Below the pieces are notes generated by a model that searched no databases, was not told where the DNA came from, and was given only the letters and a program-made list of their open reading frames with translations. A program made the translations under genes and the position numbers. DNA of 23,490 bases from the IMG/VR virus record IMGVR_UViG_3300017730_000091, positions 1 through 23,490 of that record. One strand, written 5' to 3'. Shown in pieces: positions 5,482 through 8,898 of this stretch. This stretch comes from a virus. The stretch's first letter is position 1. The number at the start of each line of letters is the position of its first letter.

Positions 5482-7179
5482 CTAATATCCAAAATCTGCA
5501 TCTGCAGGTGTATAAGCTTGTTCAAGACGTAAGTGCCTTAACTGAGCTAGTGGGTCGTTTACTCTTGGCCTAGACATAATAAGATACCGTAAGGCATCGT
5601 ATGCGTGGTCTGGAGCATGTGTATCTACATCTTCAGGGTTTGATTTATCCAAAGGAATGCCTTGAAGCTCGCGTATCAGGCTAGGACAGCTACTGAAAAT
5701 CTGTAATTTTGGTCGTCCGCTTGGCTGTAACCTCAAGTATTCGTGAATTTGAATCTTACCCTGTATTCTATTTTTATCCGCTCTACGCAACTTGTGGCCT
5801 TGTCGTACTAATGTTTCTCCGACTGTAGGGCCTGTAGTACCTGTTCTAGACCAAGCTGCAGTATCTAGAACTCCTTGTACAGACATAGGATCTTGTAACT
5901 CCATTTCTGTAATTTTATAACCTAAGTCTTCACCAGTAAGACCTTTTTGATATAGTTCTCTATAAATAATTAAAGTACCGTCACTAGGATCTATTGTAGC
6001 CCATATACAGGCTGACTCACTAGCGTATCCATAGTCAATACCTTTAACTCTATCCCAGTGAATAGGGAGTTGAAAGGGTGGTATAACATGTTCTTCCATA
6101 CTAAATTCGGTAAAAGCTGCCCCCTCGTTTACGTCCCAATTACCTTCTAATAGCTGCTTGCGTTGCGTTGGGGGCAAAGCTTTAAGCATTTGCTCGTAAC
6201 GTCCATCATTTGCTAAAAATGGATTGTCTTCTAAACGAGCTGGTATAAACTTTCTTGTTAAACCATCTTTACCTATAAATGTAGTATCAGGCTCTGATGG
6301 TTCAATATACCTATTTTTTACCCAATGTGCGCCTACGCCACCGGGGTTAGCAGTACAACGCATATAAGGCGTTATCTCGCTGTCTGTTGTTCTTAGTCGT
6401 GAAGCTAAGTAGTTCCAAGAAAACTCTGTGGGTAGATGAGTAATCTCATCAAAACCTATCCATGAATATGCTTGTCCTTGATAACGATATACGTCTGCAT
6501 CTCTTTCAAGGAAACCAAACTCTATTTTAGCACCACTAGGAAAGTTCCAAAGCTTTTCTACTTCTCTATATTTACAACCCGGAAAAGCTTTTGGATATAA
6601 TTCCCTTGACTTATCTATTAGCTCTCGTAGCTCTGGCATAGACCTTCTAATAATTAAAGCTCTATGAGCTGCTCTATGAGCATATCTAAGAGGATCTACG
6701 AGCATAGCATAGGACTTACCACCTCCTGCTGCTCCACCATACAATACGTCAAGCTCTGAAGCTGCTAAAAAGTCTTCTTGAGGCCCTTCGTTAGCTTTAA
6801 AAACAATATTGTCTTTGTTTTCTTCTAAATGTTTTTTAACATTATCAGGCAGTATTTCTAGTTCTGTATCTTCTACTACTTGATTATTACTTAACGAATC
6901 TAACTTTTTAAATACTTGTTCTTTTTTAGAAAGTACTTTTTTATTATTATTTAACTTTTTACTTAAAGAATTTATTTTATCTTTAGTTTTTTTAACAGAA
7001 CGCCTAGCAGCTATTTTAGCTTTTTGCTCAGAATGGTAGTTATATCCTTTAGATTTAACACCAAGCTTACGCCCTGATTTTTTCTTAGGAGTACCATCTA
7101 CTTTTAATACAAAAGAACCATCTTCGTTCTTTAAGTAATTATTAGGATGGACTTCCCAATCTTTCGTCTCTTCTACCAT
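5482..7179 (-). CDS. terL: Terminase large subunit (packaging ATPase and nuclease)
   Basis: The 565-residue DNA-packaging motor. The ATPase part shows Walker A GGAAGGGKS (residues 148-156), Walker B SWIGFDE (239-245, catalytic Glu 245) and the coupling segment CTANPGG (about 275-281). The C-terminal RNase H-like nuclease has its acidic residues at GIDYG (Asp 382), VLDTAAW (Asp 439) and HAPDHAYDALRYL near the end. The motor would bind the portal, cleave concatemeric DNA and translocate it with ATP. The first 130 residues are an unusual Lys-rich extension with a DGTPKKKSGRKLG stretch and likely coiled coil. The start at 7179 lacks a clear ribosome site and overlaps the preceding gene by 38 nt, implying coupling. 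Confidence 0.95.
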   Translation of the reverse strand: MVEETKDWEVHPNNYLKNEDGSFVLKVDGTPKKKSGRKLGVKSKGYNYHSEQKAKIAARRSVKKTKDKINSLSKKLNNNKKVLSKKEQVFKKLDSLSNNQVVEDTELEILPDNVKKHLEENKDNIVFKANEGPQEDFLAASELDVLYGGAAGGGKSYAMLVDPLRYAHRAAHRALIIRRSMPELRELIDKSRELYPKAFPGCKYREVEKLWNFPSGAKIEFGFLERDADVYRYQGQAYSWIGFDEITHLPTEFSWNYLASRLRTTDSEITPYMRCTANPGGVGAHWVKNRYIEPSEPDTTFIGKDGLTRKFIPARLEDNPFLANDGRYEQMLKALPPTQRKQLLEGNWDVNEGAAFTEFSMEEHVIPPFQLPIHWDRVKGIDYGYASESACIWATIDPSDGTLIIYRELYQKGLTGEDLGYKITEMELQDPMSVQGVLDTAAWSRTGTTGPTVGETLVRQGHKLRRADKNRIQGKIQIHEYLRLQPSGRPKLQIFSSCPSLIRELQGIPLDKSNPEDVDTHAPDHAYDALRYLIMSRPRVNDPLAQLRHLRLEQAYTPADADFGY

Positions 7180-7426
7180 AAAGTTTATCTGTATGTTTTT
7201 GTAATCCTCTAGCTGAAAGGTAACGACCTGTTTTATGGTGTAACCATTCAGAAGCCATTCTTAAGCTTAATTCTTCATTAGCAACCATTTTAGAAATAAA
7301 TTCTAATGCCTCTAATTGCGAGTCTACTGGAGCTAACCAGCCACTAATATCAGAAGATACATATCCAAAAGGTATAGTAGAAGTAACACGCTTGATATAG
7401 TTATCAGGTATATCAACTGTGTTCAT
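7142..7426 (-). CDS. Small HTH-like protein between the terminase genes
   Basis: A 94-residue protein using the ATG at 7426, which has GAGGG about 5 nt upstream; a GTG six nt earlier would add two residues but fits the ribosome site worse. Residues from about 40 on (LEALEFISKMVANEELSLRM and SEWLHHKTGRYLSARGLQKH) read like a helix-turn-helix of the recombinase or terminase-small type, where a helix, a 'TGR.lS..GL' turn and a recognition helix follow each other. It overlaps terS by 14 nt and terL by 38 nt. It could assist DNA recognition in packaging or regulate transcription. No catalytic residues are seen, and the function is inferred from motif and context only. Confidence 0.65.
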   Translation of the reverse strand: MNTVDIPDNYIKRVTSTIPFGYVSSDISGWLAPVDSQLEALEFISKMVANEELSLRMASEWLHHKTGRYLSARGLQKHTDKLYGRRDERLGSPS

Positions 7427-7826
7427 ATTCACCCTCTAATATAATGTTTTCTTTTTTAGGTAATATAAATAAACCTCCAGAAACATTATGGTCTACACTG
7501 ACTTTATCAGTTTTTGTAACACCTACTCTATCTAAAATAGTTTGAGCAGCTTGGAGCTTAGAGCTTACTTGTGGAAACGGACGATCACTCTGCATAATTT
7601 CTACTAGCTTAAAAGCAGCTTTTGGAGCATTATGAGCTAACAGGTTTTCAGCCAAATCTACTAATTCTTGTTTTAAACTTTGAATAACTTGGTAGTGATT
7701 GCCTTTATATCCTGCTAATTCCGCAGATTTTTTAAGATCACCTCCCGTTTCTACAACACTATCTAAAAATAATTGTTGTTTATCAGTAAGTTCTTTAGTT
7801 CTTTTTGTATCTATAGAATAATTCAT
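7413..7826 (-). CDS. terS: Terminase small subunit
   Basis: A 137-residue protein whose N-terminus (LTDKQQLFLDSVVETGGDLK, then SAELAGYKG) is the usual small-terminase opening: a short helix and a homeodomain-like DNA-binding helix-turn-helix. A helical oligomerisation region and a C-terminal tail (GLFILPKKENIILEGEYE) follow. It would recognise the packaging site and load TerL, which lies two genes downstream. It is the first gene of the leftward late operon. The only start before the domain is the ATG at 7826; a consensus promoter's -10 box ends just 8 nt upstream, so the mRNA from that promoter would be leaderless or almost so. The identification rests on the N-terminal motif and position. 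Confidence 0.8.
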   Translation of the reverse strand: MNYSIDTKRTKELTDKQQLFLDSVVETGGDLKKSAELAGYKGNHYQVIQSLKQELVDLAENLLAHNAPKAAFKLVEIMQSDRPFPQVSSKLQAAQTILDRVGVTKTDKVSVDHNVSGGLFILPKKENIILEGEYEHS

Positions 7827-7833
7827 GTCTCGT

Positions 7834-7862
7834 ATTATAGAGTTAAATTAAAGGTTTGTCAA
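7834..7862 (-). promoter_or_regulatory. Sigma70 promoter for the late/packaging operon
   Basis: On the minus strand TTGACA (7862-7857), a 17-nt spacer and TATAAT (7839-7834) match the sigma70 consensus exactly. Transcription would start near 7827, one base before the terS ATG. It points at the structural genes, so host RNA polymerase probably transcribes them. Confidence 0.85.
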
Positions 7863-7897
7863 GTCTTTTATAATATTTAGTTATAATACTTGACAAA
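7855..7897. repeat. Perfect 10-bp inverted repeat joining both -35 boxes
   Basis: TTTGTCAAGT (7855-7864) and ACTTGACAAA (7888-7897) are exact reverse complements separated by 23 AT-rich nt. Each arm contains the -35 hexamer of one of the two divergent promoters. The arrangement would let a dimeric regulator cover both promoters, although part of the symmetry is simply two back-to-back -35 boxes; the flanking matching bases go beyond the hexamers. Confidence 0.75.
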
Positions 7898-7918
7898 AGC
7901 TGATTTCAACTGTATACT
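7890..7918 (+). promoter_or_regulatory. Sigma70 promoter for the rightward early genes
   Basis: TTGACA (7890-7895), a 17-nt spacer and TATACT (7913-7918) on the plus strand. Only one position of the -10 differs from consensus. Transcription would begin near 7925 and cross the whole control region before the first gene at 8443. Confidence 0.8.
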
Positions 7919-8333
7919 GGCGTAATCAATGACCCCCCCGCTGCATAGTATATATAGGTAACACCCTCTATAGCTATAAAACCCTCCTGATTGTATAGTC
8001 TGTAAAGTTGTTAAGTAAAGACTTTATAGCCCCGCTAAGCTGGTACACATACTAAACCTGTTAGAAATGTATATGATTGCTATATATACTACGGTAGGGG
8101 GTATGGCATCCTGCCCGGTCTAGGTAGCCCATAGATCTAGATAGACTAGACAGTCTTTGTAGAACTATATTGTATTATTTTGTAAGCCTTTCTAGTTTAC
8201 AAAGCCTCACAAGACTGTAAAGCGTATGTATTATTAGGATATTGTTAGACTAGAAAACTTAACAGTCTCAACAGCTTAGTATTTAAATAGTCTTGCCTGT
8301 TATCGTATCATTTCCCATATGAAACTCCTTACG

Positions 8334-8421
8334 TTATTTAACCTCAACAAGCTAAGAATTTTACAACCTTGCTTTCTTGCAAGCTTGAAAAATCCTTTTA
8401 ACGCTTGTTAATCTTAAATAA
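8334..8421. other. Long imperfect palindrome / stem-loop
   Basis: Arms 8334-8372 and 8379-8421 fold back on each other around a TTTCTT loop. The outer 19 nt of each arm match at 15 of 19 positions (TTATTTAA... with ...AACAAGC), and the apex pairs CTTGC with GCAAG. The middle pairs imperfectly, with four extra nt on the right side. It lies in the leader just before the first rightward gene. It could be an RNA structure, a processing site or an origin hairpin. Confidence 0.55.
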
Positions 8422-8425
8422 CTAA

Positions 8426-8439
8426 AGACTAAGGAGTCT
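8426..8439 (+). promoter_or_regulatory. Hairpin over the ribosome binding site of the first early gene
   Basis: AGACT-AAGG-AGTCT forms a 5-bp stem whose loop and 3' arm contain the Shine-Dalgarno sequence AAGGAG. The ATG follows 3 nt later at 8443. The stem could limit ribosome access, or it could be a protein-binding palindrome. Confidence 0.5.
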
Positions 8440-8442
8440 CAG

Positions 8443-8898
8443 ATGGAAAATAATACAGTTAGTGTTTCTAATATTCGCAGAGCAACAGAGTCACAGTGCA
8501 AAGCTATAGCAGCTAGGTTTTCATGCTTACCTGAGTTTGAGCCAGTGTTTAAGGAGGACTTTGATCTTATGAAGCAGAATGATCCTAGCATCTCTAGCAA
8601 CTATGAAGCTTACAAGTTGCTGTTAGACTTTATGGTCTCATGGTCTAAGGCTGACAAAGAAGAAGCAGCTCTGAACAATGGAATAGTTCAAGAGTTTCTA
8701 GGTTCTGAAAAGAAAGAGTTAGTTCTTTTAGACGATGTTGTTCCCGGTCTTCATCAGTATTTAATGCAACAGGCTGAGGAAAAGAACATAGATATGAGCG
8801 CAGCGGCTTACAAGAAACAGACTAAGTACAGCACTCAGGCTAGTCCAAGACCAGCATCTGAAGTTCTTCAAAGCTATTTAGCTACACTGACAGCTTAA
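8443..8898 (+). CDS. First early gene, unknown function, 151 aa
   Basis: I do not recognise this protein. It is 151 residues, predicted mostly helical and mildly acidic, with no membrane segment or signal peptide. Segments include QCKAIAARFSCLPEFEPVFK and a C-terminal tail rich in Ala, Ser and Pro (TQASPRPASEVLQSYLATL). The start at 8443 has AAGGAG within a small hairpin. As the first gene behind the long structured early leader, it is a candidate for a host-takeover or regulatory protein, but only position supports that. It is followed by the first copy of the repeated hairpin. Confidence 0.75.
   Translation: MENNTVSVSNIRRATESQCKAIAARFSCLPEFEPVFKEDFDLMKQNDPSISSNYEAYKLLLDFMVSWSKADKEEAALNNGIVQEFLGSEKKELVLLDDVVPGLHQYLMQQAEEKNIDMSAAAYKKQTKYSTQASPRPASEVLQSYLATLTA

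Follow-up and report, generated by a model that had tools for sequence, protein, structure and literature searches.

In a 23,490-nucleotide viral fragment (hereafter the window), two promoters of host type stand back to back between the packaging genes and the early genes, and their -35 boxes lie in the arms of an inverted repeat. The locus raises the question of whether this symmetry is an operator through which a single factor could control early and late operons together, as a preliminary description of the DNA had proposed, or whether the promoters themselves are what the phage group has conserved.

Phage identity and gene layout

Judged by its sequence, the window comes from a podovirus that resembles SAR11 phages and is probably of the HMO-2011 type. 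Its terminase large subunit (TerL) shares 64–65% identity with those of the Pelagibacter phages HTVC115P, HTVC103P, and HTVC104P, and approximately 44–48% with those of HTVC033P, HMO-2011, and Roseobacter CRP phages. The HMO-2011-type group carries a polymerase with a DnaJ-like domain (PMC9038755). The genes run in two divergent arms, with names derived partly from sequence reading: terS, terL, portal, and capsid-type genes leftward, and single-strand-binding, primase-helicase, ThyX-like, family A polymerase, and ribonucleotide-reductase-like genes rightward. The sign of the GC skew switches at the divide, as expected from divergent coding and possibly also from an origin. The terminase genes are located as follows.

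5482–7179, minus strand: terL, terminase large subunit, in a leftward operon with terS; 65% identity to the HTVC115P terminase large subunit
7413–7826, minus strand: terS, terminase small subunit, an ORF whose HTVC115P homologue is annotated 'putative terminase small subunit'

A search for single-subunit RNA polymerase (PF00940) returned none in 12 relative genomes or records, with T7 as a positive control. Both arms would therefore be transcribed by the host enzyme, barring an alternative polymerase or sigma factor that escaped detection.

A conserved pair of divergent host-type promoters

Direct reading and a scan both recovered exactly the divergent hexamers reported in the preliminary description, with 27 nt between the -35 boxes. 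PL is directed at the packaging operon and PR at the early/replication operon, as that description had also stated.

7834–7862, minus strand: PL, left promoter (TTGACA at 7862–7857, N17, TATAAT at 7839–7834)
7863–7889, no strand assigned: AT-rich spacer separating the two -35 boxes, situated where a UP element of PL or PR would lie
7890–7918, plus strand: PR, right promoter (TTGACA at 7890–7895, N17, TATACT at 7913–7918)

PL scored 12/12 and PR 11/12 against the bacterial σ70 consensus, which may not be that of SAR11, and both fit the σ70 pattern of TTGACA and TATAAT hexamers 16–18 nt apart, with a conserved 17-nt spacer. Their predicted transcription starts are at about 7827–7826 for PL and about 7925 for PR. 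In the window's record, the exact pattern TTGACA-N16-18-TATAAT occurs once, at PL. Under the looser pattern TTGACA-N16-18-TAYAMT, PL and PR are the only sites in several whole relative records (G001, G002, and G007), and other records hold a few more.

The pair was then followed in relatives. The first-round relatives, 53 in number, from IMG/VR and found through TerS, all have a divergent promoter pair scoring 11/12 or 12/12 immediately 5' of terS; every relative of the group thus has the near-perfect host-type promoter before its packaging genes to which the preliminary description had drawn attention. TerS identity to the window's protein is 36–82% among representatives of these relatives and the isolates. 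Both promoters score 12/12 in HTVC115P; HTVC103P and HTVC104P have scores of 11/12 and 12/12, and HTVC033P has a 12/12 left site and an 11/12 right site. At the terS locus of HMO-2011 and CRP-1 there is no such promoter pair, and the genes upstream of the terminase are co-directional. A search of viral contigs that used only the pattern of a conserved core in the right leader (described below) retrieved 68 stretches, 64 of them with enough upstream sequence; both promoters at 11/12 or better, together with terS, were present in 62 of these 64. Among 48 non-redundant pairs, the spacer is 17 nt in 43 left and 47 right sites, and the left -10 box is TATAAT in 42. From these patterns, PL and PR look like genuine conserved divergent host-type promoters that are presumably active.

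A predicted leaderless mRNA for terS

The usual distance from a -10 box to the transcription start is 6–7 nt. In the window, the terS ATG follows the PL -10 box by 7 nt, and the sequence just 5' of this ATG is PL itself. The same arrangement holds in all 68 distinct loci in which terS could be traced: an in-frame terS ATG lies 6–9 nt after the left -10 hexamer, placing the start codon at, or a few nucleotides from, the predicted start site. Among named isolates, the distance is 6 nt in HTVC103P, 6 nt in HTVC104P, and 7 nt in HTVC115P. The terS mRNA is therefore predicted to be leaderless, and would begin at the first codon or at most about three bases ahead of it. HTVC033P is an exception, with 156 nt from the PL -10 box to the annotated terS start, so that, across the wider group, not every terS mRNA would be leaderless. 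Among the window's genes tested, a Shine-Dalgarno-like tetramer precedes 15 of 19 rightward and 5 of 8 leftward genes.

Downstream of terS in one relative (L014, 1102–1160, plus strand), a glutamine riboswitch was identified (RF01739, E = 2e-8).

The right leader and a conserved core

On the other side of the divide, the predicted early transcript starts with a long leader that is not translated and measures about 517 nt in the window; in relatives, about 380–1350 nt pass without a clear rightward gene. Within it lies a conserved element of about 78 bp.

7925–8442, plus strand: predicted untranslated leader of the early transcript, with no plus-strand ORF of at least 50 aa
8040–8116, plus strand: conserved core, GTACACA...GAAATGTATATGATTGCTATATATAC..GGTAGGGGGTATGG..TCCTGCC (profile match, E = 2e-15)

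The core is nearly gapless and comprises AAAATGT, a TATATATA run, a G-rich tract, and TCCTGCC. A profile search found it in a single copy per genome in all clades sampled, and an independent pattern search agreed. An Rfam search of the right leader gave only chance-level matches, none above the gathering score, and the core yielded neither an RNAalifold consensus structure nor RNA covariation. A structured RNA in the core was considered and rejected: there were no consensus pairs, and the cognate hairpin was no more stable than swapped combinations in a permutation null. In the right leaders of HTVC103P and HTVC104P (L171 and L172), a C-rich tract replaces the G-rich tract on the same strand, and the flanking TTTACA and TATATA parts are retained. 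Because RNA structure is lacking and the G-rich strand is swapped in these two isolates, the core looks like a duplex-DNA element; an origin, a packaging site, and a binding site are the candidate roles.

Four genuine contig ends lie no more than about 30 nt away from the core: the start of L070 (equivalent to window position 8084), ends of L124 and L156, and the record end of G006. The ends of L154 and L155 were left out, being ends of stored stretches and not of contigs. These contig ends might reflect a terminus or pac region of the genome, or the breaking of assemblies at the G-rich tract.

In HTVC115P (L066), the right leader also contains an intrinsic-terminator-like hairpin, AAACCGGTGGGGTTTTTTT, about 150–180 nt from terS and before the core. 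It could serve attenuation or a small RNA in that isolate, and it is unexplained by a simple constitutive early promoter.

The first early gene and its hairpin

A long inverted repeat pairs the Shine-Dalgarno sequence and start region of the first early ORF.

8311–8450, plus strand: long inverted repeat/hairpin
8443–8898, plus strand: first early ORF, 151 aa, with a good Shine-Dalgarno sequence (AAGGAG) and no family match

The hairpin has a folding energy of -45.4 kcal/mol (z = -8.1) and is present in the window and near relatives. At the equivalent place, L005 and L006 have stronger hairpins (-63 and -60 kcal/mol) of different sequence in which the pairing is kept. The structure may delay translation or serve as an RNase III target. 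A family search with the first early proteins gave no matches and no phage regulator- or repressor-like family; most of them are unknowns.

A mini-ORF, ATGGGAAATGATACGATAACAGGCAAGACTATTTAA, with its own TAAGGAG lies at 8290–8330 on the minus strand and arose by inverted duplication of the early gene's start region.

A transcription model and the timing of the packaging genes

Taken together, we consider it likely that two constitutive host σ70 promoters sharing an AT-rich spacer form the main transcription origin of this phage and that any late timing is imposed after initiation. The sequences, their conservation, the spacing to terS, and the variability of the gap between the promoters were observed directly; around them, the model would have the near-consensus, back-to-back promoters PL and PR both active from their predicted start sites and free of a repressor. 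From PL, transcription would begin at the terS ATG or a few bases away from it, giving a leaderless mRNA that continues into the packaging and structural genes. From PR, an early mRNA would be made whose long untranslated leader crosses the 78-bp DNA element. The AT-rich spacer lies in the UP-element position, and presumably plays the UP-element role, for PL and PR alike, and polymerases starting at either promoter probably compete with or assist those at the other. The conflict that the preliminary description saw between a near-perfect host promoter and late expression of the packaging genes is a real one; under this model, any lateness of the late genes would be set after initiation, by leaderless translation, RNA structure, or distance.

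A different account places the control at PL itself, which would be kept off early and would fire late. The silencing factor would act elsewhere than at the inverted repeat and could be a nucleoid protein of the host, a small early protein, or TerS repressing its own gene. Packaging genes are typically late, TerS proteins commonly carry a helix-turn-helix DNA-binding domain, and some DNA-binding regulators, lambda cI among them, are known to be made from leaderless mRNAs, all of which favours such silencing. However, a consensus promoter would be odd to retain if it had to stay off, no further conserved motif was seen in the surroundings of PL, and the family search of the first early proteins yielded no repressor-like candidate, although most of these proteins are unknowns. 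We therefore regard early silencing of PL as unlikely. The infection transcriptomes found in the literature concern other pelagiphages, HTVC022P and HTVC027P (PMC12753301), and no expression data came to light for the present phage type.

TerS might also have a further role. It might be made from a leaderless mRNA at the onset of infection, from the strongest promoter of the genome, and bind DNA early, its target being the 78-bp core some 200 bp away, which would be a packaging start, a replication origin, or both. We hold this to be quite unlikely; if true, TerS on the core would couple transcription start, replication, and packaging at one locus.

The inverted repeat as a probable by-product of facing -35 boxes

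The inverted repeat of the preliminary description is exact over 10 bp in the window, with TTTGTCAAGT the reverse complement of ACTTGACAAA.

7855–7864, no strand assigned: left arm, TTTGTCAAGT, the PL -35 box and its context
7888–7897, no strand assigned: right arm, ACTTGACAAA, the PR -35 box and its context

As an operator, it would let a dimeric phage or host factor bind across the facing -35 boxes and switch early and late transcription together. The exactness of the arms speaks for this proposal, but 6 of the 10 bp follow automatically from two divergent consensus -35 boxes, and in relatives the arms range from 6 to 12 bp, the shortest consisting of the hexamers only. For tests of gap and symmetry, pairs were oriented by terS and reduced to the 48 non-redundant ones. 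The gap between the -35 boxes is 6, 9, 12, 14–17, 22–30, 37, 38, or 41 nt, with a mode of 26–28 nt; about half of the pairs fall at this mode, which favours an operator, but beyond this group there is no fixed helical phase, and half-sites at a fixed spacing or phase, as a dimer operator would have, were not found across the 6–41-nt range. An apparent helical periodicity of the gap was rejected as a signal of its own, since it reflects the related phages of the 26–28-nt group, which are not independent.

Nor did the flanks co-vary beyond the promoter context. Symmetric flank matches averaged 4.04 of 8, against 3.94 ± 0.14 for permuted left/right contexts, and 1294 of 5000 permutations reached the observed value. 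What relatives keep is the hexamers and their local context, cTTGACAAa: a C precedes TTGACA in 40 of 48 left and 42 of 48 right sites, and each of the two following A residues is present in 40–45 of 48. CTTGAC is the usual form of the -35 box in alphaproteobacteria. The comparison of spacing and symmetry in relatives, which the preliminary description had named as the check on its proposal, thus turned against a single factor on the inverted repeat: no fixed symmetric operator is kept. The repeat would instead be a by-product of identical -35 contexts placed face to face.

Dyad symmetry inside the gap gave the operator one further, modest point, at 43% compared with 36% in shuffled gaps (z = 3.8, a value inflated by relatedness). 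This excess argues weakly for a factor that is flexible or that binds AT-rich DNA; together with the mean A+T content of the gap (78%), it also fits a shared UP-element position. On balance, a dimer operator across the -35 boxes appears very unlikely. That the -35/-10 matches are accidents of AT-rich DNA is practically out of the question: although weak 9/12 sites are only slightly commoner than in shuffles, over a longer stretch scanned, the expected number of 12/12 sites is 0.037 per window at the same dinucleotide composition, and chance is refuted by the conservation of the pair, which stays in place in 53/53 relatives while intervening sequences diverge.

Comparison with known systems

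The nearest described parallel that we found is the PL1/PR2 pair of the Cluster O mycobacteriophages (the Corndog group), in which divergent SigA-like promoters flank an AT-rich gap and leaderless mRNAs are predicted on both sides (PMC4351075). The window shares the divergent host-sigma promoters, the AT-rich gap, and a predicted leaderless mRNA, but only terS is predicted to be leaderless here, whereas on the opposite side a conserved core lies within a long leader. Cluster O phages are, moreover, unrelated long-tailed phages, whereas the window's arrangement spans dozens of diverse phages.

Lambda PR/PRM likewise combines divergent σ70 promoters with a leaderless transcript, that of cI, and the window resembles it in both respects, its own leaderless transcript being a prediction. 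Unlike lambda, the window has both promoters near consensus, no conserved operator array, and no repressor identified, and its leaderless gene is terS, not cI.

In T7, early genes are driven by the strong consensus host promoters A1–A3 and late genes by the phage RNA polymerase. The window is similar in its strong consensus host promoter for early genes, and its RNA hairpin before the early gene resembles RNase III-type leaders of the T7 type. In contrast to T7, no phage RNA polymerase was found in the 12 relative genomes or records searched, and the packaging genes lie directly behind a host promoter.

Significance

HMO-2011-type phages have been described as dominant and widespread in the ocean, and a text search of the paper describing them found no mention of promoter, terminal, or RNA polymerase (PMC9038755). 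The real worth of the locus is its group-wide conservation, the fixed distance of 6–9 nt that separates the left -10 box from the terS ATG, and the adjacent core, which is unnamed; the inverted repeat is incidental. The core beside the promoters is a candidate origin or packaging site that has no name in the databases searched, Rfam included. The proposed transcription origin of the group, fixed and recognisable from its sequence, places a predicted leaderless packaging gene after a host promoter of consensus type, and gives a direct, testable prediction of how early and late genes may be ordered in SAR11-like hosts by a phage for which no polymerase of its own was detected.
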